Source: Butyrivibrio sp. AC2005 | GTDB lineage: Bacteria > Bacillota > Clostridia > Lachnospirales > Lachnospiraceae | Assembly (NCBI RefSeq): GCF_000424145.1 | Contig: NZ_AUJI01000034.1 | Span: 1 to 64,000, forward strand | Direction: 5' to 3' | DNA: 64,000 bases | Part shown: in pieces, positions 1,726-18,166 of the stretch | Layout: every line of letters starts with the position of its first letter | Numbering within the stretch: position 1 is the first letter of the stretch | The notes under the pieces: generated by a model | Database searches by the model: none | Told to the model about the DNA's origin: nothing | The model's input: only the letters and a program-made list of their open reading frames with translations | Position numbers and translations under genes: made by a program

Positions 1726-1772
1726 TATGGAACAATTATGACTTCAAATTATGAAAATAGATGAGGTTAAAT

Positions 1773-2948
1773 ATGAAGAATTATGACTTCGATGAAATAA
1801 TAGACAGAAAAAACACATCATCGCTTAAGTACGATTTTGGACCGGAGAGAAAAAAGCGCGATGATCTCCTGCCACTCTGGGTGGCGGATATGGATTTCAG
1901 GCTTCCGCCTGAGATTATTGAAGATATAGAAAAACGAGTAAGGCATGGAATTTTCGGATATACAGATCCTAAGGATGACTACAGAACTGCTTTAAGAAAC
2001 TGGTTTTTGCAAAGACATGGAGTTGTGATTAAAGACAATTGGAATGTAATTACTCCGGGGGTGGTATATGCGATTGCAACAGCAATAAGGGCATTAACCT
2101 ACGAGGGAGATGCGGTTATAATTCAGCAGCCTGTCTATTATCCATTTGCTGAGACGATAAAGCTTAATGGAAGAAAACTTGTTAATAACCAGCTTATTTA
2201 TAAGGATGGACGTTACGAGATCGATTTTGAGGATTTTGAAAATAAGATTGTATCGGAAAATGCAAAGCTATTTCTTCTATGCAGTCCTCATAATCCGGTA
2301 GGAAGAGTATGGACGAAGGAAGAACTGAAAAGGCTTGCGGATATCTGCAAGAAGCATGATGTGTATGTTTTTGCAGATGAAATTCATTCAGATTTTATCT
2401 ATAGAGGAGTTAAACATACTTCTTATCTTGAACTCGGTGAGGAGTATACAGAAAAACTGATTATCGGAACTTCACCAAGCAAGACATTTAATATTGCAGG
2501 ACTTCAGATTGCAAATATTATCATTCCGAATGAAGAAACAAGAAAGTCATTTCTGATTCATAATGAGGCAGCAGGCTATACTCAATGCAATGCAATTGGA
2601 CTGGCTGCCACCATATCGGCATACACTAAGGGGGCAGAGTGGCTAGATGAGTTGATCGAATATCTTGAAGATAATGTTACTTTTTTAAGGGAGTTTCTGG
2701 CAGAAAAACTTCCTAAAGTACGTCTTATAGAACCCGAAGGAACATATCTCGTATGGCTGGATTTTTCGGATGTTACTGATAGTCATAAGGAGCTTGAAAA
2801 GTTGATTGTTGATAAAGCACATCTATGGCTTGATTCGGGAATTATTTTTGGAAAAGAGACTGCTCTTTTCGAAAGGATAAACATTGCGTGTCCAAGAAAA
2901 GTGATTGCACAGGCCATGGATCAGTTGTATGAAGCAATCAACAATTAA
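1773..2948 (+). CDS. patB: PatB/MalY-type PLP C-S lyase (cystathionine beta-lyase)
   Basis: This 391-aa fold-type I aminotransferase-like enzyme belongs to the PatB/MalY branch, which cleaves the C-S bond of cystathionine or cysteine conjugates to a thiol, pyruvate and ammonia. Visible marks are the VADMDF segment near residue 38, the SPHNPVG motif near 171 and the PLP lysine in TSPSKTFN (Lys237). Length is normal for the family. The ATG at 1773 is chosen because GAGG precedes it by six bases; an upstream in-frame ATG at 1761 lies inside that ribosome site. It opens the sulfur part of the nitrogenase-like neighbourhood, with a DUF2292 peptide next. Confidence 0.85.
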   Translation: MKNYDFDEIIDRKNTSSLKYDFGPERKKRDDLLPLWVADMDFRLPPEIIEDIEKRVRHGIFGYTDPKDDYRTALRNWFLQRHGVVIKDNWNVITPGVVYAIATAIRALTYEGDAVIIQQPVYYPFAETIKLNGRKLVNNQLIYKDGRYEIDFEDFENKIVSENAKLFLLCSPHNPVGRVWTKEELKRLADICKKHDVYVFADEIHSDFIYRGVKHTSYLELGEEYTEKLIIGTSPSKTFNIAGLQIANIIIPNEETRKSFLIHNEAAGYTQCNAIGLAATISAYTKGAEWLDELIEYLEDNVTFLREFLAEKLPKVRLIEPEGTYLVWLDFSDVTDSHKELEKLIVDKAHLWLDSGIIFGKETALFERINIACPRKVIAQAMDQLYEAINN

Positions 2949-3169: not shown

Positions 3170-4357
3170 ATGGATTGTAGTGGTTGCAATAAATGTACGG
3201 ATGTAAATTGCAGTATAGAGACTAAATGTCAGCAGCTTGATAGAAACTTGCTGGATAAATGGGGAGCCATCAGTTTCCCTATTTATCAGACGGCGACCTT
3301 TGCCCACCCTGGACTTGGGGACAGCACCGGATTCGATTATACGAGAATGCAGAATCCAACGAGGCAGCAGCTTGAGTCTATAGTTGCCTACCTTGAGAAC
3401 GGAAAAGATGCTATAGCTTTCTCGAGCGGTATGGCTGCGATTGCCACTATTATGGAGTTGTTTAAACCCGGAGATCATTTCATCATAGATGAAGATCTGT
3501 ATGGCGGAAGTATACGTCTTTTCAACGAGATAAGCATAAAGAACGGCCTGGAGTATACAGCAGTAAGTCTTAGCAGTGAGGATATAAGGCCATATATAAA
3601 GGAAAACACAAAGGCAGTTTATCTTGAGACTCCAACAAATCCCATGATGAATGTGACAGATATTGCGAGGCTTACAGAGGTGACAAAGGAAAGAGGAATA
3701 TTACTGATAGTGGATAATACTTTTTTGTCACCCTACTTTCAGAATCCTCTCAACCTTGGAGCAGATATAGTAATTCATTCCGGAACAAAATTCCTTGGTG
3801 GACACCACGATACCATAGGAGGCTTTGTTGTAGTTAAGGATGAGAAATTGGATGAGAGATTGAGATTTATCTACAAGACAACCGGTGCAGGGCTGTCGCC
3901 CTTCGACAGCTGGCTCATACTTCGAGGTATCAGGACATTGGCGGTTAGATTGGACAGAGCTCAGGATAATGCACTGGCACTTGCCAAATTTCTGAAGACT
4001 AACAAGCATGTGACAAAGGTTATATATCCGGGACTCCACGAACATCCCGGATATGAGATTATGAAAAAGCAGGCGAGAGGCTTTGGAGCAATGCTTACGT
4101 TTGAAGTAGACAGTGCAGAGTTTGCGCACTCAATTTTGAATAATGTTCAGCTTATCTATTTTGCTGAGAGTCTTGGAGGAACAGAGACTTTGATTACCTA
4201 TCCGATTACTCAGACTCATGCGGATGTGCCAAAGGATCTCCTTGAAAAGAATGGAATTAATGACAGAGTGCTTAGGCTCTCTGTAGGTATCGAAGGGATA
4301 GCTGACCTTATCTGTGAGTTTAACCGCGTTTTTGCAATAGCAGAAAAAGAGGCATAA
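3170..4357 (+). CDS. Cys/Met metabolism PLP enzyme with Cys-rich N-terminal extension
   Basis: This 395-aa protein belongs to the trans-sulfuration family (cystathionine gamma-synthase, cystathionine lyases, methionine gamma-lyase, O-acylhomoserine sulfhydrylase). It shows the substrate/PLP segment YTRMQNPT near residue 57, ETPTNPMM near 153, VDNTF near 181 and the PLP lysine in HSGTKFLGG (Lys207). It is odd in starting with five cysteines in the first 20 residues (C3, C6, C9, C14, C20), absent from ordinary members, which could bind a metal or Fe-S cluster or dock a partner. AGAGGAG lies nine bases upstream of the ATG. Which reaction it performs cannot be read from sequence alone. Confidence 0.85.
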   Translation: MDCSGCNKCTDVNCSIETKCQQLDRNLLDKWGAISFPIYQTATFAHPGLGDSTGFDYTRMQNPTRQQLESIVAYLENGKDAIAFSSGMAAIATIMELFKPGDHFIIDEDLYGGSIRLFNEISIKNGLEYTAVSLSSEDIRPYIKENTKAVYLETPTNPMMNVTDIARLTEVTKERGILLIVDNTFLSPYFQNPLNLGADIVIHSGTKFLGGHHDTIGGFVVVKDEKLDERLRFIYKTTGAGLSPFDSWLILRGIRTLAVRLDRAQDNALALAKFLKTNKHVTKVIYPGLHEHPGYEIMKKQARGFGAMLTFEVDSAEFAHSILNNVQLIYFAESLGGTETLITYPITQTHADVPKDLLEKNGINDRVLRLSVGIEGIADLICEFNRVFAIAEKEA

Positions 4358-4457
4358 GGTAGAAGATTTTATTATACCCAGCCATAAGTAATAATTGATT
4401 TTCCGGAGTCGGTCTCTGTGCTAGAATTCATCTAACCTTAAAGATAACCGACCGGTC

Positions 4458-4523
4458 AACCGGAGGTTTACAAACACTTCATCTCATATGTGGAGTGCGT
4501 TGTAAGCCTCCGGTTTTCTTTTT
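4458..4523 (+). terminator. Intrinsic terminator after the first PLP gene block
   Basis: A 16-bp stem (AACCGGAGGTTTACAA, pairing with TTGTAAGCCTCCGGTT with one G-T pair) encloses a 26-base loop that can itself fold, and is followed by a T-rich tract. It separates the patB-DUF2292-PLP block from the nitrogenase-like genes, so two transcripts or an attenuation point are likely. Confidence 0.8.
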
Positions 4524-4579
4524 CGAAAAAGGTAATTGTAGAGGGACATTGTTTTATAAAAAAGTGAGAACTATAGAAA

Positions 4580-5179
4580 ATGATTATCAAGGCAGATTTT
4601 TTCAAGGGTTATGAAAACACAAAAGATCCGGAGATGGATTTTCGCAGAAGGGAAAGAGAAAAGGTCAGATTTTATAAATCAGGAAAGATAAGAACAGTTT
4701 ATCTGAACGAGCAGACAACGTTCGAGACCATGTACGGTGAAATACCGGCGGAACTGATAACCTTCTACGAGGATGGGAATATAAAAAGAATCTTTCCCAG
4801 GTATGGAAAAATCGGAGCCTATTGGACCGAAAGAAACGAAGCTGAGATTACAGAGTTCATGAATTTGAAGGTGGGACAAAACACATACAGATGCAGGCCG
4901 CAATGTTTACATTTTTATCCTGACGGAAAGCTGAAAAGTATAACAATTTATAACAATGACAATCTGGTAATAAGGACGAAATATGGAGAGGTCAAAACTA
5001 ATATAGGAGTTTCCTTCTATAGATCAGGGAAAGTTAGAAGTATAGAACCTGCTTTCAAAACTGAAATCGAATATAAGGGAAAGAAAATAAGACCCTTCAA
5101 TTTTTTTGCAGATGGGATGCATGCGGATAACAACTCACTTGTCTTTGATGAGGAGGGCTACATCCTAAGTTACATATAA
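4580..5179 (+). CDS. Protein with FYxDGK beta-hairpin (MORN-like/YwqK-like) repeats
   Basis: I do not recognise this 199-aa protein as a named family. It carries about five degenerate repeats of the form aromatic-Tyr-x-x-Gly-Lys-hydrophobic: FYKSGKIRTV, FYEDGNIKRI, FYPDGKLKSI, FYRSGKVRSI and FFADG, spaced 30-40 residues apart. These resemble MORN_2/YwqK-type hairpins, and the protein should form an elongated beta-sheet. There is no signal peptide. The stop is 7 bases before the next possible start of the NifB-like gene, so it belongs to that operon and may be a scaffold or cofactor-assembly partner (inference). No clear ribosome site precedes its ATG. Confidence 0.7.
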   Translation: MIIKADFFKGYENTKDPEMDFRRREREKVRFYKSGKIRTVYLNEQTTFETMYGEIPAELITFYEDGNIKRIFPRYGKIGAYWTERNEAEITEFMNLKVGQNTYRCRPQCLHFYPDGKLKSITIYNNDNLVIRTKYGEVKTNIGVSFYRSGKVRSIEPAFKTEIEYKGKKIRPFNFFADGMHADNNSLVFDEEGYILSYI

Positions 5180-5186
5180 GGAATAA

Positions 5187-6155
5187 ATGTACGACCAAAC
5201 TTATATATATAAGTATGGAATGGCACATAAAAAGGGAGCAATGGAAATGGACAACAATACAAACACATTACAGGAATTAAACGATCCTCTGGAGCATATC
5301 TCGAATCAGCATCCCTGCTTTGGTAAAGGACCAAATCTTAATAAAGGAAGAATTCATCTTCCGGTAAGTCCTTCCTGCAATATACAGTGTGCTTTTTGTA
5401 ACAGGACAAGGAATAAGGAAGAAAAAAGGCCGGGTGTAACTTCGGAAATACTTACTCCAAATGAGGCAGCAAAAATACTTGATAAGGCTTTGGAACTTTG
5501 TCCGCAGATAACTGTAGCCGGAATTGCAGGTCCGGGAGATACGCTGGCATCGGATTATGCGATTGAGACTTTTAGACTCATAAAAGAAAAACATCCGGAG
5601 CTTATAAATTGCCTGAGTACAAACGGACTATTGCTGGAGGAAAGAGCAGAGGAGCTTATAGAGGCAGGTGTAAAGACTGTAACGGTTACAGTTAATGCCG
5701 TTGATCCTGAGGTGTTAAAGCATATATGTCTCTGGATAGTGAAGGATGGAATAACTTACACAGGTGTGGAAGGGGCAAGAATTCTTATTGAGGCGCAGCT
5801 ACGAGGCATTAAAAAGATAAAAGAACTCGGAGCAATGGTAAAGGTTAACACAGTTCTTTGCCCTGGAATAAATGATGACCATGTTGAAGAGGTTGCCAAA
5901 ACCGTGTCTGAGCTTGGAGCAGATTTCATGAACATTATCCCGCTAATACCTACACATAAGCTGTCACATTTGCAGGAACCGGATTGTATGATGCTCCATG
6001 AGGCCAGAACCAAGGCAGAAAAATATATAAGGGTTTTCAGACATTGCCAGAGATGTAGAGCAGATGCGGCAGGCATTCCCGGCAAGGTTGAGATATCAGA
6101 TCAGCTATATGACATAAAGAAGCTTAACGTTAACAATACATTTTCACATGGATAA
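5187..6155 (+). CDS. NifB-like radical SAM cofactor-biosynthesis enzyme
   Basis: It probably builds the carbide-containing Fe-S core (NifB-co) of a nitrogenase-type cofactor. The radical SAM motif is CNIQCAFC (C64, C68, C71 from this start). Other NifB marks are HPCF (C44), the EEKRP motif, AGPGD, TVNAVDPE, KVNTVLCPGIND, and the C-terminal HCQRCRAD cysteine pair. Unlike many NifB proteins it has no fused NifX domain, and stand-alone NifX genes follow. The start is ambiguous: 5187 has AAGGA upstream, and 5247 (MDNNTNT) has GGGAG eight bases upstream. Confidence 0.9.
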   Translation: MYDQTYIYKYGMAHKKGAMEMDNNTNTLQELNDPLEHISNQHPCFGKGPNLNKGRIHLPVSPSCNIQCAFCNRTRNKEEKRPGVTSEILTPNEAAKILDKALELCPQITVAGIAGPGDTLASDYAIETFRLIKEKHPELINCLSTNGLLLEERAEELIEAGVKTVTVTVNAVDPEVLKHICLWIVKDGITYTGVEGARILIEAQLRGIKKIKELGAMVKVNTVLCPGINDDHVEEVAKTVSELGADFMNIIPLIPTHKLSHLQEPDCMMLHEARTKAEKYIRVFRHCQRCRADAAGIPGKVEISDQLYDIKKLNVNNTFSHG

Positions 6156-6165
6156 GGGGACATAG

Positions 6166-6507
6166 ATGAAATACAGGATAGCGCTGGCAACATACAGCGG
6201 GGAGACAATAGATCTCCATTTTGGGAGATGTACAAGGTTCCAGGTGGCAGAAGTTACAGACAATATCTCTTGGGATTACATAGATGAAATAGATACAGGT
6301 ATTGCCTGCATAGGAGAGTGTGATCATGAGAATATCTCAAGGGTAGCTGAACAATTAAGTTCCTGCAAATATGTTCTGGCATCGAGAATTGGCCCCGGAG
6401 CAGCAAGAATCCTCTTGAATAACGGAGTTAAGGCTCTCGAAATAGAGAATGAGATTGAGAATGCAATAGAAAAGCTCATGGCGTATGACAAAGTGCGTAG
6501 TGCCTGA
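6166..6507 (+). CDS. NifX/NafY-like iron-molybdenum-cofactor-binding domain protein (first copy)
   Basis: This 113-aa protein has the dinitrogenase FeMo-cofactor-binding fold. The opening MKYRIALATYSGETIDLHFG with DLHFGRCTRFQV is the usual NifX/NifB-C-terminal signature, and the late IGPGAARILLNNGVKAL matches the family's second conserved block. Family members carry NifB-co or finished cofactor between maturation proteins. It starts ten bases after the NifB-like stop with AAGGGG as ribosome site. Two cysteines (GIACIGEC) mid-protein could help hold a cluster. Confidence 0.87.
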   Translation: MKYRIALATYSGETIDLHFGRCTRFQVAEVTDNISWDYIDEIDTGIACIGECDHENISRVAEQLSSCKYVLASRIGPGAARILLNNGVKALEIENEIENAIEKLMAYDKVRSA

Positions 6508-6523
6508 TACGAAAGGATAGCAG

Positions 6524-6952
6524 ATGAGTTATAAGGTGGCAGTAACAAGTAGTGATGGAAAGCAGGTTGATCTGCATTTTGGAGAAGCTGACAAATTTCT
6601 GATTTATACGGTATCGGATGACGAGAGTATTACCTTTTCAGAAACAAGAATATATGACGAGAGTAAGAAATCAGACGGAGAATTACATGAGGTAACGGCA
6701 GGTAATTGTGCAGGATCCGGCACAGGATGCAGAGGTGGTAATGATAAAAAAATCGAGCTGATAAAGGACTGCAGGGTAGTTCTTTCCGGGAAGATAGGTT
6801 TTGGTATTGCCAAGAGACTGGAGCTTAACAGGATCAGGCATTTTGAAATAGATGGTGACATTGAAAAGAATCTTAGGGCTATTACTGATTATCTGGGTAA
6901 GCAGGACAGGCATGAGAGCCTTAGGAGAAGTAAGGAAGGTAGCACGCTTTAA
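6524..6952 (+). CDS. NifX/NafY-like protein (second, diverged copy)
   Basis: This 142-aa paralogue of the preceding protein also starts with SDGKQVDLHFGEADKFLIY and carries the late SGKIGFGIAKRLELNRI block. It differs by a central Cys/Gly-rich insertion (NCAGSGTGCRGG) and a charged C-terminal tail. Two adjacent single-domain NifX genes suggest separate roles, for example NifB-co carriage versus chaperoning of the apo-reductase (inference). AAGGA lies upstream of the ATG. Same operon as nifB and nifH. Confidence 0.87.
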   Translation: MSYKVAVTSSDGKQVDLHFGEADKFLIYTVSDDESITFSETRIYDESKKSDGELHEVTAGNCAGSGTGCRGGNDKKIELIKDCRVVLSGKIGFGIAKRLELNRIRHFEIDGDIEKNLRAITDYLGKQDRHESLRRSKEGSTL

Positions 6953-6960
6953 TAGCATAA

Positions 6961-7827
<867 letters not shown>

Positions 7828-7849
7828 GAAAGACCTATGGAGATTGACT

Positions 7850-8602
7850 ATGCTGAAAATAGATGGGCTTAAGAAAAGCTTTGGAGATAATCGGGTTTTA
7901 AAAGGGGTATCTCTCGAAGTTGATAAGGGGGATGTAATCGTTATTTTGGGGCCTTCAGGTTCCGGTAAGACAACGCTTCTCCGCTGCCTTGATTTTCTGG
8001 AGTATGCAGATGAGGGGAAAATGGAATTCGATGATATAAACGTAAACCTTAATCACATATCCAGAAAAGATATAAAGAAAATAAGAAATAAGCTTACCTT
8101 TGTTTTCCAAAATTATAATCTGTTTGCCAATAAGACTGCACTCGAGAATGTCACTGAGGGACTTATTTATGGAAGAAAAGTACCAAAGCAGGAGGCTATA
8201 GAGATTGGGAAGCAGATGCTGGATAAGGTAGGACTTAGTGAGAGATATAACTACTATCCCAGTCAGCTCTCAGGGGGGCAGCAGCAGAGAATCGGGATAG
8301 CGAGAGCAATGGCTCTAAAACCGGATGTAATTCTTTTTGATGAACCTACTTCTGCTCTTGATCCTGAACTGATAGGTGAAGTGTTAAGCGTAATGAAAAA
8401 GCTGGCAAAAGAAGGAACAACGATGGTTGTTGTAACGCATGAGATGAACTTTGCGCAGGATGTTGCTAATAAGATTATTTTCATGGATGGCGGAGTTGTT
8501 CTGGAAGAGGGAACACCAAAGGAGATATTTACCTGTCCTAAGGAGGAGAGAACCAAGCAGTTCCTTAAGAGGATACTGCCTGAAGATGATTATGTAATTT
8601 GA
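7850..8602 (+). CDS. Polar amino-acid ABC importer ATPase (HisP/GlnQ/TcyC type)
   Basis: This is the 250-aa nucleotide-binding subunit of an amino-acid importer. Walker A is GPSGSGKT, the Q-loop region VFQNYNLF, the signature [14 protein letters not shown], Walker [15 protein letters not shown] and the switch VVTHEM. GGAG sits seven bases before the ATG at 7850; a longer in-frame start at 7775 lies inside nifH. It lies between nifH and nifD, while its binding protein and permeases come after nifK. Transport and reduction are therefore tied in one operon, and the family suggests cystine, cysteine or similar substrates. Confidence 0.9.
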
Positions 8603-8637
8603 CTTTGGCTGATTATAGCCAATTGAGCGGAGGAGCA

Positions 8638-10122
8638 ATGAGTATAAATTTAAACATATCAGCAGTAGAGATGAGAGATAAAAGACTAGGCGCTATTACT
8701 TCTTATCATGGTGATGCGCAGACTCTTCTTGAATTGTCTGAGGATAAAAAAGTACCTGTCACAACAAGATCCTATAGTCAGTGTAGTGCCTGTTCTGAAG
8801 GATGCGCAGCTACTCTTACATACTATGTGAGAGGAGCAGCAATAGTAGCACATGCACCTATCGGGTGTGATGCACAGATTGCAAGTCAGAACTATGCCGC
8901 AAAAGCAGCATCAATTAACAGACACATTGAAGAAATCCATGCAATCAAATTTTTGAGTACGAATATCAAGGAAAAAGACACGATTTATGGTGGCCTGGAG
9001 AAGCTTAGGAATGCTATTCAGGAAGCTTATGACAGATTTAATCCGGAGGTTATTTTCGTAACATCATCCTGTGCATCCGGAATTGTAGGAGACGATATAG
9101 AAAGTGTTGCAGATGAGAAGGAAAGTGAACTGGGAATACCGATTGTACCAATATTTTGTGAAGGCTTTAAGTCAAGAGTATGGACTACAGGCTTTGATGC
9201 TGCATATCACGGAATCTTAAGAAAAATCGTAAAGGATCCCAAGAAGAAACAGGAGAATCTTGTGAATATTTTCAATTTCCAGGGGATTCCGAGCTTTAAC
9301 GATCTTCTTGGAAAACTGGGACTTATCCCGAATTATCTCATCCCTATGGCTACGGTAAAACAGCTCGAGGAGATGTCGGAAGCAGCGATATCGGTTCATA
9401 TGTGTGAAACGCTTGGAACATATGTATCCGCAGTATTAGAAGAAAAGTACGGCGTACCAGAGGTAAAGGCACCTGCACCTTTTGGTATTAAGTGGACAGA
9501 TGAATGGTTAAGGGCTGTGGCAAAAGCTACAGGTAAGAGTGATCTGGTAGAGAATCTGATTGAGAGTGAGCATAAGAAGATTGAGAAGGAACTTGCGGAA
9601 GTAAGGGAAAAACTTAAAGGAAAGAAAGTATATGTATATGCAGGTGATTCTTTTGCACATAGTATAGGTAATCTTGTGCAGGATCTTGGAATGACACTGG
9701 TTGGAATGACGACTCTGCACCATGATCAGAAGGTTGATAATGAAAATAAGGAAAGATTAAATACACTGAAAAATCTTATTGATGAGAGAGGTAATATTCC
9801 TGAGTTTTCTGTATGTAATCAGCAACCTTATGAAGTTATAAAGATTTTAAGGAGGCTAAAACCTGACTTTATGATTGCAAGACATCAGGGACTAACACCT
9901 CTTGGAACTAAACTTGGAATACCAACAATAAACGAGGGAGATGTAAATGCAAGTGTTGGCTATGAAGGCCTGGTGAATTTGGGAAAGAGAATTATTGAGG
10001 CAGGAAGAACATCTAAATTTGAGCAGAACATAGCAAAGCATGCAAAGTTTCCATACAGCAAATGGTGGCTGGATGAGGAACCGGATCCATTCTATTTTGA
10101 AAGGGAGAATAAAGCGAAATGA
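8638..10122 (+). CDS. NifD-like catalytic subunit of a nitrogenase-like reductase
   Basis: This 494-aa oxidoreductase/nitrogenase component 1 family member should hold the active-site cofactor. P-cluster ligands appear as C52 (in SQCSACSEGC, with extra C49 and C56), C77 (APIGC) and C145 (SSCASGIVGDD). The cofactor cysteine (Azotobacter C275) is kept as C256 in VHMCETLGTYVSAVLEEKYG. In contrast, Gln191 and His195 equivalents are Trp182 and Phe186 (CEGFKSRVWTTGF), and the His442 position after KLGIP is Gly434. It is therefore probably not a dinitrogen reducer. GGAGGAG upstream fixes the ATG at 8638. Confidence 0.88.
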   Translation: MSINLNISAVEMRDKRLGAITSYHGDAQTLLELSEDKKVPVTTRSYSQCSACSEGCAATLTYYVRGAAIVAHAPIGCDAQIASQNYAAKAASINRHIEEIHAIKFLSTNIKEKDTIYGGLEKLRNAIQEAYDRFNPEVIFVTSSCASGIVGDDIESVADEKESELGIPIVPIFCEGFKSRVWTTGFDAAYHGILRKIVKDPKKKQENLVNIFNFQGIPSFNDLLGKLGLIPNYLIPMATVKQLEEMSEAAISVHMCETLGTYVSAVLEEKYGVPEVKAPAPFGIKWTDEWLRAVAKATGKSDLVENLIESEHKKIEKELAEVREKLKGKKVYVYAGDSFAHSIGNLVQDLGMTLVGMTTLHHDQKVDNENKERLNTLKNLIDERGNIPEFSVCNQQPYEVIKILRRLKPDFMIARHQGLTPLGTKLGIPTINEGDVNASVGYEGLVNLGKRIIEAGRTSKFEQNIAKHAKFPYSKWWLDEEPDPFYFERENKAK

Positions 10123-11474
10123 GTGTATTTATAGAACAACCAAGATTTTCCTGTGCTCTTGCAGCACAGCAGACAGTGCTTGCAATACCGGGTGCTGTTC
10201 CTGTAATACATGCGGGACCGGGATGCTCTGCCAAAGCACATAGATCTATAGCAACAGAGGCAGGCTACCAGGGAGAAGGCTTTTGCGGAGGTAATGCTGT
10301 TTCATCAAGCAACACTGGTGAAAAAGAAGTTGTTTTCGGTGGTGAAGGAAGACTTAGAGAAACAATAGACGGAGCACTTAAGGTCCTGGATGCAGATTTA
10401 TACGTAGTTCTTTCAGGGTGCACTGCAGGAATTGTAGGAGATGACAGTGTACATGTGGCAGAAGAATTCAGACGAAAAGGATATCCGGTGATTGGAACGG
10501 AGACAGCCGGTTTCAAGGGGAATAACTACGCAGGACATGAAATTATTGTAAAGGGGATAATAAATAAATTTCTGGAGGAGGAAATAGAACCTCAGGTCAG
10601 GAAAGGTCTTGTGAATGTCTTTTCCGTAGTGCCATATCAGGATCCCTACTGGAGGGGAGATCTTCATGAGATAAAGGCACTTTTGGAAAAGTTGGGACTT
10701 GAAGTGAACATTCTTTTTGGCTACGAATCCAAGGGAGTTGCAGAGTGGAAGGATATTCCAAATGCGGAGTTTAACCTCATTATTTCTCCTTGGGTAGGAA
10801 AAAGTGTAGGCGAATTATTACAAAGAAAGTTCGGAACCCCTTTTCTTCACTATCCTGTTTTCCCTGTTGGCGCAATAGAAACAAGTAAGTTTATCAGAGA
10901 GGTTGGTGAGTTTGCCAAAATACCAAAAGAAGTATATGAGGGAGTGATTGAAAAGGAGGAAGATGTTTTTTATCAGTATCTTATTTCCTTAGCTGACTTT
11001 ATAGCAGAGTTTAGAAATAGTCTGCCCCATGAGTTTTTTGCGGTAGGAGACAGCCTGTATACTCTTGGTGCCGCAAGGTTTCTTACAGAGGAGCTCGGTT
11101 TTATTCCTAAGGGAATTTATGCAATAGATGATGTCCAGAATAAAAAAGCAAAGCAGCTTGATGAACTTGTAGCTTCTCTTGGAGATGAATATAAGGATGT
11201 ATTTGTACAGGAGTCTGACGGTGGTCTTATTGTAGCTGACATTAAGGATAAGCTTGATAAAGACAAGAAGACTCTGTTACTTGGAAGTATTTGGGAGAGG
11301 GATATTGCAGATGAATATAAGTTCCCTCATGTATACCTGAGTTACCCTGTTTATGCGCATGTTGTAGTAAACAAATCCTATTTTGGATATAAGGGGGGAC
11401 TTAATCTATTGGAGGATGTATATGATTCCGTTTTCAAGAAGGGAATTGTTACAAGAACAACAATAAGTGTTTGA
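10119..11474 (+). CDS. NifK-like beta subunit of the nitrogenase-like reductase
   Basis: This 451-aa partner of the NifD-like subunit has all three P-cluster cysteines: C12 (RFSCAL), C36 (AGPGC) and C101 (LSGCTAGIVGDD). It lacks the N-terminal arm of true NifK (about 520 aa) and starts almost at the first ligand, as in short nitrogenase-like proteins. Its ATG overlaps the nifD stop by four bases (ATGA), so translation is coupled and a 1:1 complex is expected. No separate NifE or NifN pair is present, so cofactor maturation may be simpler than in diazotrophs. Confidence 0.88.
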   Translation: MSVFIEQPRFSCALAAQQTVLAIPGAVPVIHAGPGCSAKAHRSIATEAGYQGEGFCGGNAVSSSNTGEKEVVFGGEGRLRETIDGALKVLDADLYVVLSGCTAGIVGDDSVHVAEEFRRKGYPVIGTETAGFKGNNYAGHEIIVKGIINKFLEEEIEPQVRKGLVNVFSVVPYQDPYWRGDLHEIKALLEKLGLEVNILFGYESKGVAEWKDIPNAEFNLIISPWVGKSVGELLQRKFGTPFLHYPVFPVGAIETSKFIREVGEFAKIPKEVYEGVIEKEEDVFYQYLISLADFIAEFRNSLPHEFFAVGDSLYTLGAARFLTEELGFIPKGIYAIDDVQNKKAKQLDELVASLGDEYKDVFVQESDGGLIVADIKDKLDKDKKTLLLGSIWERDIADEYKFPHVYLSYPVYAHVVVNKSYFGYKGGLNLLEDVYDSVFKKGIVTRTTISV

Positions 11475-11494
11475 GAAAAAGGAGGAGAAAAATT

Positions 11495-12496
11495 ATGAAG
11501 AACAGAATTGTTGCAGGAATTATCACAGGAACACTTACATTATCTACGGTGCTTGCCGGTTGCGGAGCACAGAGTGCAGGAGCTGCTAATAATGAAGCAG
11601 TAAGTGCTGATTCTGATAGCGCAGAGGATTCTAGTGTAGAGGATGCAGGAGCAGAGGAGGAAGTAACAGAAGCTGATGATAAGGCAGAGACAGAGGGCCA
11701 GGGTGATGTAAGAAAGATACAGATCGCCTTTGCACAGGCCGGAGTTCCATTCAGCTATGTTGACGAGGATGGAAACTATACAGGTTATGATATCGAAGTT
11801 TTAAGAAAGGCCGACGAGCTTATTCCGGAATATGAATTCGAGTTTGTTCCAAGTGAGAGTGGTGAGGCCAGAACCGGAGCGCTGGAAGGCAAGTATCAGA
11901 TAGCAATAACAAACAGCTTTTGGACACAGGAAAGAGCAGATAACTATATTCTTCCGGAGCAGTTTCTGGGAGCATCGATTACAGCTCTTATTGTAAGAAA
12001 GGAAGACGCGGATGTTACTACATTCGAGCAGGTATCTGATAAGGGATATAAGCTGGCACCTATCCAGGCAGGAGATGGAATGCTCTATGTTGTTCAGGAA
12101 TACAATGATAATCATCCGGATCAGCAGGTAGAGATAACCATAGTTGATAAGATAGATTCTGCAACAAATTACAGCTATCTTGCAGAGGGTAGATATGATG
12201 CCCATATAGGTGTTTATTCAAGTTATGAGAAGACCATCGCTAATGAGGATGGTGAGCTTCACGAAGCATATGGCGATATTCTTACAGCATCACCTTATAT
12301 CGCAGTTAAGACATATACACTGATCAACAAGCAGGAAACAGACCTTGCGGAGAAGCTTGAAGCTGCATTAAAGACTCTTTATGAAGATGGAACTTATGCT
12401 GAAATTTCAACTCAGTTCTATGGAGAGGATGTATTTGCATATCTTCCTGAGAATGAGGATGCGGACAGAGTATATGTAAATGAGAAAAAAGACTAA
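11495..12496 (+). CDS. Amino-acid ABC transporter substrate-binding lipoprotein
   Basis: This is a 333-aa family 3 solute-binding protein. The lipoprotein signal ends LAGC with the lipid cysteine at 23, followed by a long acidic Ala/Ser/Glu linker (about 30-70) and the binding domain (IQIAFAQAGVPFSYVDEDGNYTGYDIEVL onward). AGGAGGAG precedes the ATG at 11495; an upstream in-frame ATG at 11471 overlaps the nifK end and lacks this site. It should deliver a polar or sulfur amino acid to the two permeases that follow. Confidence 0.9.
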   Translation: MKNRIVAGIITGTLTLSTVLAGCGAQSAGAANNEAVSADSDSAEDSSVEDAGAEEEVTEADDKAETEGQGDVRKIQIAFAQAGVPFSYVDEDGNYTGYDIEVLRKADELIPEYEFEFVPSESGEARTGALEGKYQIAITNSFWTQERADNYILPEQFLGASITALIVRKEDADVTTFEQVSDKGYKLAPIQAGDGMLYVVQEYNDNHPDQQVEITIVDKIDSATNYSYLAEGRYDAHIGVYSSYEKTIANEDGELHEAYGDILTASPYIAVKTYTLINKQETDLAEKLEAALKTLYEDGTYAEISTQFYGEDVFAYLPENEDADRVYVNEKKD

Positions 12497-12516
12497 TAGA
12501 TGGTAAGGGATAAAAA

Positions 12517-13221
12517 ATGATTGGCTTCAACATAACAAGGTTTTTTGATACGTTTCAAAAATTAATAAAGTATATTCCACCAACACTGATGATACTTTTA
12601 TTTTCTCTTTTGTTTGCATTTATACTTACACCATTGTTGGTGTGGATGAAGCTTGGAAAAAACAGGATATTACGGAAATTTTCCAACGGCTTTACGACAG
12701 TTATGCGATGCACTCCGGTTTTGGTTATGCTGTTTCTGGTCTATTACGGACTTCCAAAGCTCTTTAGTGTGTTTGGCATTGACCTTAATAAATTAAGCAG
12801 ATTTGTATTTGTGGTGATTACTTTTTCAATCCTATATGCAGGTTTGTTTTCTGAAATTGCAAGGAGTGCATATGAAGCTATTCCTCATGGACAGGAAGAG
12901 GCTGCTCTTTCTGTAGGTCTTTCAAAATTCTGTACCATTAGGAGAATCATTTTCCCGCAGGCGCTGGTAATTGCAATTCCCAATTTGGGTAATGCAATTA
13001 TCGCGCTACTTAAGAATTCATCGTTGGCATTTACTATAGGCTTTATGGAACTTATGGGGGGAACAGAACAGATATTAGCACTGAGATTCGGAACTTTTCC
13101 TCTCGAAGCATATACGGCACTTGCACTTATTTATTGGGGCATATGCATTTTGCTGGAGAGAGTTTTTAAGTGGTGTGAAGAAATTACTGAAAGAAAGATG
13201 AAAAGGAGCTATATGTCATGA
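12517..13221 (+). CDS. Amino-acid ABC transporter permease (first)
   Basis: This 234-aa inner-membrane protein of the HisM/GlnP type has about five membrane helices. The EAA loop that docks the ATPase is EEAALSVGLSKFCTIRRIIF, close to the family consensus. It overlaps the second permease by four bases, so both should be made together. With the binding protein and the ATPase near nifH it completes an importer. Confidence 0.9.
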   Translation: MIGFNITRFFDTFQKLIKYIPPTLMILLFSLLFAFILTPLLVWMKLGKNRILRKFSNGFTTVMRCTPVLVMLFLVYYGLPKLFSVFGIDLNKLSRFVFVVITFSILYAGLFSEIARSAYEAIPHGQEEAALSVGLSKFCTIRRIIFPQALVIAIPNLGNAIIALLKNSSLAFTIGFMELMGGTEQILALRFGTFPLEAYTALALIYWGICILLERVFKWCEEITERKMKRSYMS

Positions 13222-13922
13222 ACCTGCAGTTTATGTCTAGAACGTTTATTGCTTGCCTTAAAGGTATACCGACAACTTTGATTATTGTTTCATTGACAAT
13301 CCTTATTTCAACTCCTTTGGCAATACTGGTCGGAATAGCAAGATATAAAAAGATAAAGGTGCTTCATCAGATTCTTAGTGTTTACACTTCTTTTATAAGA
13401 GGTACACCGAGCATTCTTCAGATATATCTTGTATATAATACGGTTCCGAGTATGCTTGCTATTTTCTTAAAAAACATAGGGAGTGAAGTAAACGTATTTG
13501 ACCTTAATCCAATTATTTATGCTCTTATTGTTTTTGTTCTAAACATCACTGCGACTTTTTCAGAAATAGTAAGATCGGCTCTTATGACGGTTGATAAGGG
13601 ACAATATGAGGCGGCACAGACAGTAGGGCTTTCCAGACTCAGAACATATCAGAGGATTATATTTCCACAAGCTATAGTTTCAGCCATTCCTAACATATGC
13701 ACGCTTATAGTGGGACTTATAAAAATGACATCTCTTGCTTTTGCCATGACCGTTCAGGACATTATGGCTATAGCAAAGATTGAGGCCGGAAACAGCTATA
13801 ACTATATTGAAGCTTATATTGATGTATTCATTATTTATTTTGTTCTTTGTATTTTAATTGAGGCAATTTTCAAGCGAATTGAAGTAAGAACAAAAAGATT
13901 TAAATTCCAGACAGCTACTTGA
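13218..13922 (+). CDS. Amino-acid ABC transporter permease (second)
   Basis: This second permease has the same length as the first (234 aa) and the same layout. The EAA loop is YEAAQTVGLSRLRTYQRIIF. Its start overlaps the upstream stop by four bases. Two different permeases imply a heterodimeric channel, as in HisQM. The next gene, a Cys/Met PLP enzyme, begins 14 bases later with GGAGG between, supporting import of a sulfur amino acid or its relative (inference). Confidence 0.9.
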   Translation: MNLQFMSRTFIACLKGIPTTLIIVSLTILISTPLAILVGIARYKKIKVLHQILSVYTSFIRGTPSILQIYLVYNTVPSMLAIFLKNIGSEVNVFDLNPIIYALIVFVLNITATFSEIVRSALMTVDKGQYEAAQTVGLSRLRTYQRIIFPQAIVSAIPNICTLIVGLIKMTSLAFAMTVQDIMAIAKIEAGNSYNYIEAYIDVFIIYFVLCILIEAIFKRIEVRTKRFKFQTAT

Positions 13923-13936
13923 TTTAGGAGGAAGAC

Positions 13937-15097
13937 ATGTCAAATGAAAACAGTCCCTGTACAGTCAGGGAAAACACGCTTATAGCGAGGGGAAGTGGTG
14001 CTTTTGATGAGACAGGCAGTATAAGTGTTCCTATATACAGAAGTGCAACTTATACACATAACACCCTGGAACACAGAAAGGATGCTTTCTACTATTCAAG
14101 ATGTAATACTCCTACCAGAAGAGCGTTGGAAAAACAGGTGGCAGCTCTTGAACATGGTAAGGATGCTCTTGCAGTGACCATTGGTCTTGCGGCTATGGAT
14201 ATAGTAATAAGACTCTTTGAACCCGGAGATCGTGTGATTGTATCAAGTGACCTTTACGGTGGAAGCTACAGATTGTTCAGCGAAGTATATAAAAAGTATG
14301 GTATTGATTTTGATTACGTGGATACCTGGGATATAGATAGTGTGAAGAGGGCTGTTACAGAAAAGACGAAGGGCTTTTTTGTTGAGACTCCGTCAAATCC
14401 GATGCTAAGAATAAGCGACATCAGGGCAATTTCCAAAATAGCAAAAGAGAACAATGCACTTCTTATTGTGGATAATACATTTCTTTCGCCTCTTTTTCAA
14501 AAGCCGATAGATTTAGGAGCAGACATTGTAATACATAGTGCGACAAAATTCCTCGCAGGACATAACGATGTTCTTGCGGGGATTATTGTAACTGCTACTG
14601 AAGAACTTAGGGAAAAGCTTTATTTCTATGTGATGTCAGTAGGAAATGCTCTGTCACCGGATGATTCCTGGCTTACGCTAAGGGGAATAGAAACATTATC
14701 GGTAAGATTGGAGAGACAACAGAAAAATGCATGTTCATTGGTGGTTTTTTTAAAAACGATTCCTTCGGTTAAAAAAGTATATTATCCGGGTGATAAAAAT
14801 CATCCGGATCATGAACTTGCGAAGACACAGCAAAGCGGTTTTGGAAGTATGATTTCTTTTGAAATAAAGGATGCAGATAAGGCATCTGAATATTTTGAAA
14901 AATTCAAGATTATATACCAGGCCGGAAGTCTGGGAGGGGTTCAGTCACTAATAAATATTCCAAATGCATCTCTGCAATGTCCCATTCCGGAAGAACAAAG
15001 GGCACATACCGGTGTCTCGGATGCTATTTTCAGATTATCGGTTGGAATTGAAGATATTGATGACTTGAAAGAGGATTTGGCACAGGCTCTTAAATAA
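13937..15097 (+). CDS. Cys/Met metabolism PLP enzyme (second copy)
   Basis: This 386-aa trans-sulfuration-family enzyme is a paralogue of the one at 3170-4357 but lacks its Cys-rich N-terminus. Visible motifs are YYSRCNTPT near residue 52, ETPSNPML near 150, VDNTFLSPLF near 178 and the PLP lysine in HSATKFLAGHND (Lys204). Candidate reactions are gamma-lyase, gamma-synthase or O-acylhomoserine sulfhydrylase. It sits between the importer and a serine-dehydratase-like enzyme, so its substrate is probably the imported compound or a product of the reductase. Confidence 0.87.
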   Translation: MSNENSPCTVRENTLIARGSGAFDETGSISVPIYRSATYTHNTLEHRKDAFYYSRCNTPTRRALEKQVAALEHGKDALAVTIGLAAMDIVIRLFEPGDRVIVSSDLYGGSYRLFSEVYKKYGIDFDYVDTWDIDSVKRAVTEKTKGFFVETPSNPMLRISDIRAISKIAKENNALLIVDNTFLSPLFQKPIDLGADIVIHSATKFLAGHNDVLAGIIVTATEELREKLYFYVMSVGNALSPDDSWLTLRGIETLSVRLERQQKNACSLVVFLKTIPSVKKVYYPGDKNHPDHELAKTQQSGFGSMISFEIKDADKASEYFEKFKIIYQAGSLGGVQSLINIPNASLQCPIPEEQRAHTGVSDAIFRLSVGIEDIDDLKEDLAQALK

Positions 15098-15129
15098 TTA
15101 CCTGAGAATTACTATTGGAGGAGAGATAT

Positions 15130-16746
15130 ATGGCGAAAATTTTTTATCCCGATTTTTTTAATGATGTGTTTGGACCAATAATGCAACCGGGATCTTCAGG
15201 AGGCTTTGCGGGGCCTACAAGGATTGGAAATGTCGCATCACATCTTATTGATGAGAAAATAAATAGAGTAACCTTTTCTTTTCAGAAAAGTGATATTGGA
15301 AAGTTTCAGTCCTTGGGGAATTTTATGACAGATAGAGGGTATCTGGGTGGAACCCTTGGATTTGCCACAGATGACCCAAGGCTCTTTGATGCGCATAAGC
15401 TAGCCAGAGAAGAGGGGCTTTCCTATGAATTCAGACTTGAAGATCACGATTATGGCTACGAGAGAGGGGTGAAAATAAACGTAGAGGGAAAAGACAGAAG
15501 AGGAGAGCTTATCGGTGCTTCCGTCGGAGGCGGAATGATAAGGATATATGAGGCTGGCGGATACTATCTCAACTGGCAGGCGGATACCTATGGGGTATTG
15601 ATAAAGGATGCAACCGATTCGGAGCGTGCAGAGTTTTCAGAGCTTCTTAAGAAAAATTATGGTGAAAGTGTTGTAGATATAAGAACGGTCAGTGTGAAAA
15701 ATGAGAGAGTAGGCCTTTTTGCAGAGATCGACAGGGATATATCAGAGGATAAAAGCATTTTTGAGGATAAGCAGGAGGATGTACTTTTCCTTCCTGCAGT
15801 ACTTCCGGTTGTTACTAAAAAGACAAAGAAAGCGCAGCTTTTTTCGACTGTAGAGGAGTGGAGAAATTATGCTGCCTACAAAAATATCTCCTTCCTTCAG
15901 GCTGCAATCGATTATGAGAAGAGTTCATCAGGTTGGACAGAGGAGGAGATTTGGGACTATTTCAGAAAAATAAGAGACATTTTTGATAAGCAGATACATA
16001 GTCTTGAGGACAGGAATTATGATGCTGAGGATACGCCAACACTGCCAATTTATGGAAAAAAATGGAAGGAATATCTGGATAAGGGAAATGTGATTTCGGA
16101 TGGACTTACAAGACATATTCTGACACATGCTTATGCGACGAATGCTAAGATTCCCGGAGTTATAATAGTTCCCGGCCCCATGGGGACAGGAGGAGGATAT
16201 TTGTATTCAGCTCTTGATGCGGTGAGAGAGGACAGGGGGTATAGCAGGGAAAAGGAACTGGAAGCACTTGTTATAGCTGCAGCCCTGGGGGCTCTTGCTT
16301 ATACTCATACGAATGCGTCGGGTGACAGAGGATGTATTGGCGAATCAGGAGTGTGCAATGCCATGGCAGCGGGTGCAATAGCATATATGGTTACACCGGA
16401 GAATCCTATAGTAGAGGTTGGAGTTGCAGTGGAAAGAGCAGCCTCTATGGCACTGCAGGCAAGCATGGGGCTTGTATGTGATCCTATTCCCGGAGGGCTT
16501 GAATTTCCCTGCATAACCCGTACTCTTCGTGCGGCAGTAACAGCACCGATGTATGCGGAGATGGCAATAATAGGAATTGATCCCTTGATTCCTTACCATG
16601 AATGCCTTCAGGCCATGGAGCGCCATTACAATTTGGTTCCCCATAAGCTGTTGTGTGGAAGCGATTGCGGAACCTGCACGACACCTGCTGCTTTGAAGTG
16701 CAAGAGATTTCTGACGGATCTTATGGCAGAAAATTTAGCCGGTTGA
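15130..16746 (+). CDS. L-serine dehydratase-like 4Fe-4S lyase, fused beta-alpha form, substrate unknown
   Basis: This 538-aa protein reads as an SdaAB-like domain (DVFGPIMQPGSSGG, about residues 12-25) joined to an SdaAA-like domain (from about 300). Likely cluster cysteines are C402 (RGCIGESG), C450 (LVCDPI) and C461 (FPCITR), with a further group C509, C513, C516 and C523 near the end. The usual serine-binding GPSSSHT is altered to QPGSSGGFAGPT, and TAPTNGACG to VPGPMGTGGG. It may act on another beta- or gamma-substituted amino acid such as a cysteine derivative (inference). The start at 15130 follows GGAGGAG. Confidence 0.78.
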   Translation: MAKIFYPDFFNDVFGPIMQPGSSGGFAGPTRIGNVASHLIDEKINRVTFSFQKSDIGKFQSLGNFMTDRGYLGGTLGFATDDPRLFDAHKLAREEGLSYEFRLEDHDYGYERGVKINVEGKDRRGELIGASVGGGMIRIYEAGGYYLNWQADTYGVLIKDATDSERAEFSELLKKNYGESVVDIRTVSVKNERVGLFAEIDRDISEDKSIFEDKQEDVLFLPAVLPVVTKKTKKAQLFSTVEEWRNYAAYKNISFLQAAIDYEKSSSGWTEEEIWDYFRKIRDIFDKQIHSLEDRNYDAEDTPTLPIYGKKWKEYLDKGNVISDGLTRHILTHAYATNAKIPGVIIVPGPMGTGGGYLYSALDAVREDRGYSREKELEALVIAAALGALAYTHTNASGDRGCIGESGVCNAMAAGAIAYMVTPENPIVEVGVAVERAASMALQASMGLVCDPIPGGLEFPCITRTLRAAVTAPMYAEMAIIGIDPLIPYHECLQAMERHYNLVPHKLLCGSDCGTCTTPAALKCKRFLTDLMAENLAG

Positions 16747-16808
16747 TCCTCAGACTTGTATGAAATCTTACAATAAATGATATGCAGCAATGGGATAATT
16801 TAGCCATA

Positions 16809-16854
16809 TGGCCGATTAACAGTATGATTAGTACTGTTAATCAGCCATTTTTTT
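16809..16854 (+). terminator. Intrinsic terminator ending the nitrogenase-like operon
   Basis: A perfect 11-bp stem (GATTAACAGTA pairing TACTGTTAATC) is extended by TGGC/GCCA and followed by seven T. It lies about 60 bases after the serine-dehydratase-like gene. An extended -10 promoter begins in its T tract. Confidence 0.88.
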
Positions 16855-16902
16855 GCTATAATGAAGAAACAATTAAGCTCTCAGGAAGAATTTCTGAGAG
16901 CT
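16854..16902 (+). promoter_or_regulatory. Extended -10 promoter and 5' leader hairpin of the rhodanese-like gene
   Basis: TGCTATAAT (16854-16862) is an extended -10 element; the -35 region is weak (CTGTTA at 16834-16839, spacing 17). Downstream, AGCTCTCAG (16876-16884) pairs perfectly with CTGAGAGCT (16894-16902) in the predicted leader, without a T tract. The hairpin could stabilise the mRNA or serve as a regulatory site. Confidence 0.5.
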
Positions 16903-16939
16903 AATATTGGAAATCAATGTATATATACATAGTAGGTGA

Positions 16940-17188
16940 ATGGCAATAATGAAAGAAATAACGTATGAAGAACTTTTAAAGATGCCAAAAGATTCCTTTG
17001 AGCTGGTTGATATCAGGGATGAAGGTCTTGTTCTCTATGGAATGATACCGGGGGCTGTGAATATCAGTCTTGAAGAGCTTGAATTTGTTGAGGCAAATAT
17101 ATTTAAGAGCGTCGAAAATGTAAATCTTTCAACTATAGTGGCATATAAAAAGGATGGAGTAAGACATAGCTTTTTGGATGAGTATTAA
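16940..17188 (+). CDS. Short rhodanese-like protein lacking the catalytic cysteine, possibly decayed
   Basis: The first 50 residues read like a rhodanese domain (EITYEELLKMP, FELVDIRDEG, GMIPGAVNISLEEL). The expected active-site loop with Cys after the central strand is missing: the sequence becomes TIVAYKKDGVRHSFLDEY and stops at 82 residues, versus about 100-110 for a full domain. It is therefore a truncated or non-catalytic version. The start may be 16940 or the ATG at 16949; the ribosome site (AGGTG) is poor. Rhodaneses fit the sulfur theme of the upstream operon. Confidence 0.6.
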   Translation: MAIMKEITYEELLKMPKDSFELVDIRDEGLVLYGMIPGAVNISLEELEFVEANIFKSVENVNLSTIVAYKKDGVRHSFLDEY

Positions 17189-17319
17189 GGATTATCGAAT
17201 TTTAGCATTATAAATTATGTAGATTTCAACTATCGGGTATAGTACAATTTTACATAAAATATTGATATACCTCGGTTTATGAAGTGAAAACAGGATGGAG
17301 CCCGGGGAGGGTGGTGCTT

Positions 17320-17547
17320 ATGGAAAGAAAATCTATTCTGATCAAAGATACAACAAGGCAAGAGCGTGAACAAATAGTTAAGAACTCCCTTGATTGTGGA
17401 GGCGGATGTGAGAACTGCTCATCATGCTGGCTTGGTGGTGGAAGTCCGTGGGATATATATCAGGACTACATTGACGGCAAGAAAGAAATCCGCGAAATAA
17501 ACATGGAGTACATGGAAAAATATCGCCAGGACAGACAGATTCATTGA
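17320..17547 (+). CDS. Small Cys-rich protein (first of a tandem pair)
   Basis: I cannot name this 75-aa protein. The central segment CGGGCENCSSC has four cysteines in CxxxCxxCxxC spacing, followed by a shared tail motif YQDYIDGKKEIREINMEYM. This looks like a small Fe-S or zinc site with a helical tail. GGGAGG lies nine bases before the ATG at 17320. The next gene has the same architecture, so this is a tandem duplication linked to the end of the nitrogenase-like cluster. Confidence 0.6.
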   Translation: MERKSILIKDTTRQEREQIVKNSLDCGGGCENCSSCWLGGGSPWDIYQDYIDGKKEIREINMEYMEKYRQDRQIH

Positions 17548-17562
17548 GAGGATTTATGGCTT

Positions 17563-17760
17563 ATGGGAAGTGCACCTGAGATAAATAATTCTACAATTGA
17601 AGAGCGAAGAGCATATATAAAAGAGCGTTTTCCATGCATTGCTGACTGCGATATGTGTGGACTTTGCAAGGTGTTTCGTGGAAAAGATGCTGAGACGGCT
17701 TATGCTGATTACATTGATGGAAACAGAGATTTTACGGAAGTGTCAGCTGACTATAAGTAA
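17563..17760 (+). CDS. Small Cys-rich protein (second of a tandem pair)
   Basis: This 65-aa paralogue of the previous protein has the cysteine set PCIADCDMCGLC and the matching tail AYADYIDGNRDFTEVSADYK. The common pattern of both is CxxxCxxCxxC, a gap, then Y-x-DYIDG and a helix. GAGAGGA lies ten bases upstream of the ATG. It could be an electron carrier or metal-binding accessory to the cluster (inference). The frame ends exactly where a truncated acetyltransferase remnant begins in another frame. Confidence 0.62.
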   Translation: MGSAPEINNSTIEERRAYIKERFPCIADCDMCGLCKVFRGKDAETAYADYIDGNRDFTEVSADYK

Positions 17761-17767
17761 AAGAAGG

Positions 17768-18166
17768 GGAAAGAACGCTGCTTATCTGGCAGAGAACCAC
17801 GATTTTTCAAATATATTTGGAGACAGCTCTCCAATTGGAAAGCTCTATGAACTTGACGGGAAAGTTCTGCTGATAGGTGTGGATTATGACAAGAATACCT
17901 CCATTCATCTGGCAGATGTTCGTGCTGACTATCCGGGAAAGCATAACTGCATAGAACATAGTGCGGTTATGGAAAATGGAGAGCGTGTTTGGAAGGCATA
18001 TGAAACGCTTTATGTTGATGGAGAGGATTTCGTAGATATAGGAGCTGCCTTTGAGGCGGCACATAATGTAAACAAATGCACGCTCGGAGAGGCTGGACTA
18101 AAGCTTATGAAACAGCGTGAATTAGTAGACTTTGCCGTTGAATGGATTGAGAAAAACAGAAAGTAG
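17768..18166 (+). pseudogene. 5'-truncated aminoglycoside N(3)-acetyltransferase remnant
   Basis: The frame encodes about 132 residues matching the C-terminal half of AAC(3)-type acetyltransferases as I know them (GKNAAYL, NHDFSNIFGDSSPIGKLYELDGKVLLIGV, then GEDFVDIGAAFE to the end). The N-terminal half, including the acetyl-CoA site, is absent, and homology starts eight bases after the upstream Cys-rich gene. The frame stays open upstream only as an overlap with that gene. This is best read as a deletion scar. Confidence 0.8.

Follow-up and report, generated by a model that had tools for sequence, protein, structure and literature searches.

Nitrogenase-like enzymes in sulfur metabolism

There are prior examples of nitrogenase-like enzymes that act on organic sulfur compounds. 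The methylthio-alkane reductase (Mar, MarBHDK) of Rhodospirillum rubrum, with structures deposited as PDB 9fmg and 9d9u, is described as reducing methylthio-alkanes to methanethiol and a hydrocarbon (PMC12552129), and the isethionate reductase (Isr, IsrBHDK) of Rhodobacter capsulatus is described together with the importer SsuCAB (PMC11423573). Here we have analyzed a stretch of 64,000 nucleotides from Butyrivibrio sp. AC2005, a member of the Lachnospiraceae (contig NZ_AUJI01000034.1, positions 1 to 64,000; hereafter the window). Positions 4580-16746 hold a run of 13 genes in which a Mar-like reductase is combined with a polar amino-acid ATP-binding cassette (ABC) importer and with lyases. We propose that this is a nitrogenase-family reductase probably specialised for a sulfur amino acid, of which it would cleave a C-S bond for the supply of cysteine and methionine.

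With Mar this operon shares a NifB-like maturase, NifH, the six P-cluster cysteines, the cofactor cysteine and the Arg-His loop and, as it seems, a role in the scavenging of organic sulfur. Unlike Mar, it has a stand-alone pair of NifX-like genes, a dedicated amino-acid importer and lyases. With Isr it has in common that an ABC importer of its own serves the sulfur supply and, presumably, that a nitrogenase-like enzyme cleaves C-S bonds. However, IsrD lacks the cofactor ligands and two P-cluster cysteines and IsrB is not NifB-like, whereas the window operon has all of them, in a genome without sulfite reductase; for this comparison the features of Isr were taken from its published description.

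Other homologues have been linked to sulfur genes before. Dos Santos 2012 (PMC3464626) found those bearing Cys275 in the company of cysteine synthase and O-acetylhomoserine sulfhydrylase; for other homologues the partners were ABC transporters. MarHDK-like genes were reported near type I MGCs and linked to methionine metabolism (PMC10418091), group IV genes of a termite spirochete occur with cysteine synthase (PMC13067680), and Mar homologues have been discussed in heliobacteria (PMC9147875). The general link of Cys275-bearing homologues to sulfur genes, which our operon shares, is therefore already known (PMC3464626, PMC10418091). In contrast, the sections of these two papers drawn on here contain no polar amino-acid importer, PatB, serine-dehydratase-like partner or the clade described below. 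We recognised no description of such an importer or of the serine-dehydratase-like partner in the literature that was searched, in which not every paper was examined.

An operon of putative reductase, importer and lyase genes

The 13 genes lie on the same strand (+). Neighbours overlap slightly in two places and are otherwise no more than 38 bases apart. The first codes for a MORN_2-repeat protein (4580..5179; PF07661, 36.4 bits). Next comes a NifB/MarB-like radical S-adenosylmethionine (SAM) protein (5187..6155; best-scoring model TIGR01290, 277 bits, cut-off 343.65) that consists of the radical-SAM core only, with no NifX-type C-terminal domain (positions 8-278 of the 441 of the model). Two NifX-like cofactor carriers follow as separate open reading frames (ORFs) (6166..6507 and 6524..6952; PF02579, 54.6 and 56 bits), and then a NifH/MarH-like Fe protein, the presumed ATP-driven electron donor (6985..7827; TIGR01287, 461.7 bits, cut-off 394.35).

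From here on importer and reductase genes are interleaved. The importer ATPase (7850..8602; PF00005) is located between nifH and the gene of the MarD-like catalytic alpha subunit, here D (8641..10122; PF00148, E-value 1.3e-82). After the MarK-like beta subunit, K (10119..11474; PF00148, E-value 1.8e-62), positions 11495-13922 code for the extracellular binding protein of the SBP_bac_3 family (11495..12496; PF00497, 77 bits) and two permeases (12517..13221 and 13218..13922; PF00528). One binding protein, two permeases and one ATPase make up a complete polar amino-acid importer. The run closes with CMP2, a Cys/Met-metabolism enzyme dependent on pyridoxal phosphate (PLP) (13937..15097; PF01053, 460 bits), and with a fused beta and alpha homologue of the Fe-S serine dehydratases, hereafter SDH (15115..16746, likely start 15133; PF03313, 90.5 bits). 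For the ATPase (7850), D (8641), the binding protein (11495) and SDH (15133) we chose internal ATG starts in preference to the TTG with which the listed ORFs begin.

Upstream, and set apart by gaps of about 220 bases, are a PatB-family C-S beta-lyase, also a PLP enzyme (1761..2948, +; TIGR04350, 458 bits, cut-off 340), and CMP1, the first Cys/Met PLP enzyme, similar to cystathionine gamma-lyases and synthases (3170..4357, +; PF01053, 461 bits). The best NCBIfam model for CMP1, NF005810, gave 435 bits, below its cut-off of 594.

The operon is real. Many of the fetched loci show recurring runs of the same genes, so the arrangement is not due to chance. The initial annotation had listed nitrogenase-like genes, importer, PLP enzyme and lyase in one run, with a PatB/PLP block upstream and two NifX-like genes. 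All of these were found, and those of the run lie on one strand within the interval given, although the gene at 4580 is the MORN_2 gene, absent from that annotation, and not the NifB-like one. The fusion to an importer that it described holds for the operon and not for any nitrogenase-type protein.

The genome (5.13 Mb in 74 contigs, listed as 100% complete) codes for one strong NifH (PF00142, 429 bits); the nine further matches, all of 45 bits or less, were taken for other P-loop ATPases. With PF00148, D and K alone were found over the genome, and no other protein of the D, K, E or N type. The NifH protein is 99% identical to that of another locus, L052, while the DNA is only 85% identical, so a recent horizontal transfer of nifH is unsupported and the numbers point to purifying selection. 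When positions 1700-20800 were compared with the relative G407, the DNA identity was 77-85% for PatB-CMP1, MORN-NifB and nifH and only 65% for D and K. One possibility is a stable backbone into which cassettes of D, K and importer can be exchanged.

D and K are relatives of Mar in a clade of their own

Among solved structures MarD (9fmg) was the best match of D (E-value 1.8e-133), followed by true NifD (7.5e-41), and MarK (9d9u_C) the best match of K (2.5e-116). The AlphaFold model of D (mean predicted local distance difference test score 87.8) superimposed on MarD (9fmg_A) with template modelling (TM) scores of 0.91/0.96 and 1.9 Å; nitrogenases reached TM scores of at most 0.79 among the 50 matches listed. 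Ligands and active-site residues were mapped from the description of Mar (PMC12552129). The P-cluster cysteines 66, 91 and 158 of Mar correspond in the alignment to Cys51, Cys76 and Cys144 of D, the cofactor ligand Cys270 to Cys255, and Arg428-His429 to Arg414-His415; Glu256 adjoins the cofactor cysteine. In K, the positions of MarK Cys32, Cys56 and Cys121 are all cysteines in the pairwise alignment. The active-site set of Mar is incomplete in D: Trp195, Phe199 and His375 are kept, while Cys73, Gln74 and His194 are replaced by Thr, Leu and Val, and Tyr271 by Glu. At the positions of nitrogenase Gln191 and His195 there are Trp and Phe. These data support that D and K are relatives of Mar and not nitrogenases.

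For the phylogeny we took the D-like ORFs (162 in number, 415-600 residues long) in loci L050-L182 together with the D of the window, MarD, NifD and NifE, of which 142 remained for FastTree after the removal of near-copies. The Mar-related part (95 rows) was thinned at 78% identity to 61 rows, which with 12 outgroup rows gave the 73 rows analyzed by IQ-TREE under a mixture model. The tree has no Vnf, Anf, Bch, Cfb, Nfa or Isr rows, and Vnf, Anf, Bch and Cfb were compared through model scores and PDB matches only. The loci come from one scan of a genome collection, with 80 of 222 confirmed relatives kept, and from part of the matches in 397 genomes of the family (of which 103 had some kind of match) and 61 of the genus (33), so that counts given here are not natural frequencies.

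Three groups were found: Mar (4 rows, support 100/100), group B (15 rows, 85/90) and the group of the window (42 rows, 100/99), which on the 142-row list hold 4, 23 and 68 D genes. The D of the window is located in the last one, outside the clade of R. rubrum MarD and also outside NifD and NifE; its placement within the group is weak (support 60). Trp195, Phe199, Cys270, His375, Arg428 and His429 (Mar numbering) are invariant across the three groups. Position 271, just after the cofactor cysteine, is Glu or Asp in 66 of the 68 D genes of the window's group (Lys in L122, Gln in L166), from which we call it the E-clade; in group B it is Pro, Ser or Ala, and in Mar Tyr in two of four. His194 and Gln74 are found in all four Mar rows and Cys73 in three (Thr in the other). 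Cys73 is also present in 22 of 23 group B rows. In the E-clade, Cys73 and His194 were never found (0/68) and Gln74 only five times (5/68). The E-clade is a widespread sister group of Mar that is apparently uncharacterised, and no assay of any of its enzymes was found in the literature searched. The initial annotation had read the operon as related to Mar yet distinct, a reading that D and K among true nitrogenases, with nifEN elsewhere, would have contradicted; both the tree and the genome inventory bear it out.

Some further observations concern D. An extra cysteine three residues before P-cluster Cys66 (codon 48 of D) is present in all 91 E-clade and group B rows, with Gly or Gln in the four Mar rows, and an altered P-cluster is possible. 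Two loci (L177 and L178) carry two distinct D/K pairs but a single nifH within the stretch fetched. In Candidatus Formimonas warabiya (L146) an E-clade D is accompanied by a second D/K pair and by two sets of polar amino-acid importer genes.

Importers and sulfur genes around the E-clade D genes

The importer assigned to each D was the closest one on its strand of which two or more parts lay within seven genes. Among the 68 D genes of the E-clade, in 64 loci with the window included, 34 have a polar amino-acid importer, 24 an NMT1/Tau-type importer and one a Met-type importer; nine have none assigned, partly because contigs end. Amino-acid importers stand next to E-clade D genes in Lachnospiraceae, treponemes, a Planctomycetota bin, a Deltaproteobacteria bin and others, and the ATPase is about 60-69% identical in most amino-acid-importer loci. 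The importer type changed at least five times on the tree (36 labelled rows, three labels set by hand). The model of the binding protein is nearest to glutathione and cystine-type receptors (GshT, TcyK/YtmK and a cystine receptor). The Asp that binds the amino group is missing, and the fold searches of D and of the binding protein gave no firm pointer to a substrate.

The lyases were counted within nine genes of D. Near the 33 amino-acid-importer D genes of the E-clade besides that of the window, we found PatB 17 times, CMP1 16, CysK 16, the MORN gene 7, SDH 5 and CMP2 (more than 50% identity) twice. Near the 24 NMT1 D genes there was CysK in 10 cases and none of PatB, CMP1, CMP2, SDH or MORN. 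Fisher tests between the two sets gave p values of about 1e-5 (PatB) and 4e-5 (CMP1), shared ancestry being ignored. A specific association of PatB and CMP1 with amino-acid importers was nevertheless dropped, since outside the E-clade both importer types accompany them. They are rather a general sulfur backbone, found mostly in Lachnospiraceae and also in some treponemes (L143-L145, L149). MetY-type genes, CysK, CMP1 and PatB recur around D; for CysK this holds at 28 of the other D genes, of which 66 were counted. In the list without near-copies, 11 D genes have the MORN_2 gene close by. In Butyrivibrio sp. AC2005 a CysK is coded on another contig and is 91% identical to the operon-borne CysK of L056.

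SDH has, like the type-1 Fe-S L-serine dehydratases, beta- and alpha-type domains and three cluster cysteines, which are invariant in the eight proteins aligned (8/8). It differs from them in its importer neighbours and in SSGGF in place of SSSHT (subfamily pattern S-[SA]-[GS]-x-F); SSSH is present in six other homologues from the fetched loci. We take this motif to have a role in serine dehydratases. The scores with TIGR00718 and TIGR00719 (96 and 87 bits) are far below the cut-offs (243 and 161), so that neither the curated score nor the motif makes it an L-serine dehydratase, and a separate split pair of this type is coded elsewhere in the genome (contig C4).

SDH was not found near any of the 71 D genes outside the E-clade. 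Three of the nine E-clade D genes without assigned importer have it nearby (L091, L095, L105), each time with a binding-protein gene adjoining SDH or D, and so does L147, a near-copy excluded from the list. CMP2 copies 77-78% identical adjoin SDH in L056 and L110. On the same 36 labelled rows SDH presence changed at least five times. Among 299 genomes of the family, two besides that of the window have copies above 50% identity, neither of them with a D match. In one (G236) the genes ahead of SDH code for a binding protein, a permease and an ATPase. In the other (G080) they code for a permease, an ATPase and an M20-like protein, the ORF finder having called no binding protein. The 61 genomes of the genus added one further copy (G434, the same as L056). 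Two stretches (L183:9422-13584 and L184:6458-10715) hold an SDH-like gene with polar amino-acid importer genes and no nitrogenase-like genes, and at L104:4793-5203 an SDH-like gene is cut down to a C-terminal piece of 136 residues between NifX and the importer. In this sample SDH accompanies amino-acid importers only. Its presence with importer genes where the reductase is missing indicates that importer and SDH are a module of their own, and points to the imported compound, or a close product of it, as the substrate of SDH.

A model for the pathway and its alternatives

In the proposed pathway the importer would take up an amino-acid-like compound that contains sulfur. The NifB-like and NifX proteins may build and carry an [Fe8S9C] cluster, the identity expected for the site in D and K, which would be loaded without NifEN because the genome has none. 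NifH, driven by ATP hydrolysis, would pass electrons through the P-cluster to this site, where D and K would reductively break a C-S bond, either in the imported compound itself or in a thiol or thioether freed from it by PatB, a CMP enzyme or SDH. Sulfur would leave as thiol or sulfide and reach cysteine and methionine through CysK, CMP1, CMP2 and PatB. By analogy with Mar and Isr the C-S chemistry is very likely; that the substrate is of the amino-acid type is likely, with less confidence.

Several counts weigh against a uniform or strict association of this kind. NMT1/Tau-type importers accompany 24 of the 59 importer-assigned E-clade D genes and a Met-type one another; PatB and CMP1 are near only about half of the amino-acid-importer D genes (17/33 and 16/33), and SDH near only eight of the 67 other E-clade D genes. 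Besides, PatB or CMP1 lies near nine of the 71 D genes outside the E-clade, three of them with NMT1-type and four with amino-acid importers. Of the conservation that the initial annotation proposed to check, the co-occurrence of importer and D clade holds across phyla, while the uniform importer and the SDH partner do not, and as a whole that annotation is partly supported.

The operon might code for an ordinary methylthio-alkane reductase acting on volatile methyl sulfides, with the amino-acid importer serving general sulfur uptake. MarDK is the nearest solved relative and every cluster ligand of D and K is retained. The position of D outside the Mar clade and the loss of His194, Cys73 and mostly Gln74 over the E-clade argue against it, as do importer genes interleaved with those of H, D and K, since volatile sulfides need no importer. 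We regard it as unlikely. Equally doubtful is a reductase that attacks another bond (for example C-N, C-O or C-Se) in an amino-acid-like compound brought in by the importer, in which case the link to the sulfur genes would be regulatory only. The varying importer types would agree with it, and so would SDH genes standing with importers where the reductase is missing, but D is repeatedly accompanied by CysK, CMP1, PatB and MetY-type genes, and in both characterised relatives, Mar and Isr, the bond attacked is C-S.

An Isr-like reductase that releases sulfite from cysteate, taurine or another amino sulfonate has the precedent of Isr itself, where nitrogenase-like enzymes and ABC importers assimilate sulfonates (PMC11423573), and NMT1/Tau-type importers do occur within the same D clade. 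We searched with Pfam for sulfite reductase (NIR_SIR) and 3'-phosphoadenosine 5'-phosphosulfate (PAPS) reductase, for which the controls were positive in 11 of 14 and in 14 of 14 genomes, and found neither in the genome of the window. Of nine relatives with a related D, two have NIR_SIR, which speaks for this reading, but both are less than 75% complete and none of the six near-complete ones has it; for PAPS reductase there was one weak match (27 bits, cut-off 22.5). With no sulfite reductase, sulfite released by the reductase would be a dead end in this organism, and the missing genes fit a reduced-sulfur product. Together with the cofactor cysteine of D and its NifB-like partner, which set the operon apart from Isr, this makes sulfite release quite improbable. 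Finally, a nitrogenase or alternative nitrogenase is rejected as extremely improbable: NifH is above its curated cut-off, NifB-like and NifX-like proteins are present and group IV proteins have been proposed elsewhere as nitrogenases (PMC9147875), but there is no second D/K-type pair, D falls outside NifD and NifE, and the Gln191 and His195 positions are Trp and Phe.

We return to the C-S reductase of a sulfur amino acid as the probable function. A more specific version, that the E-clade is a new class of amino-acid C-S reductases, is rather improbable. Such enzymes might convert imported S-methylated amino acids such as S-methylcysteine to methane and cysteine, or methanethiol released by a lyase to methane and sulfide.

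Neighbouring features of the window

After the operon, positions 17639-18166 code for the C-terminal part of an Antibiotic_NAT (aminoglycoside acetyltransferase-like) protein, covering profile positions 104-232 of 232. There follows a divergent pair, a Crp/Fnr-type regulator (18193-18852, -) and a ferredoxin-domain protein (18943-19713, +). No sulfur riboswitch or T-box reached the gathering score in the window, where the sole match was a lysine riboswitch at 32370-32542 (109.6 bits), nor did any in 17 related loci, nine of them of the E-clade, in which only transfer RNAs were found.

Biological significance

Few nitrogenase-like enzymes have assigned functions, and the importer and lyases make the substrate of a large clade directly testable. 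The nifH found here is near-canonical and could mistakenly be taken as a sign of diazotrophy, an error of a kind described for Clostridia (PMC8597730). If the proposed function is true, gut anaerobes without sulfite reductase would have a route to organic sulfur that might release methane or other alkanes, and the E-clade would be a further branch of [Fe8S9C]-type chemistry beside Mar. If the version with methane as product were also true, bacteria of the rumen and, judging from the names of the bins, of the termite gut would be a non-archaeal source of methane tied to sulfur scavenging.

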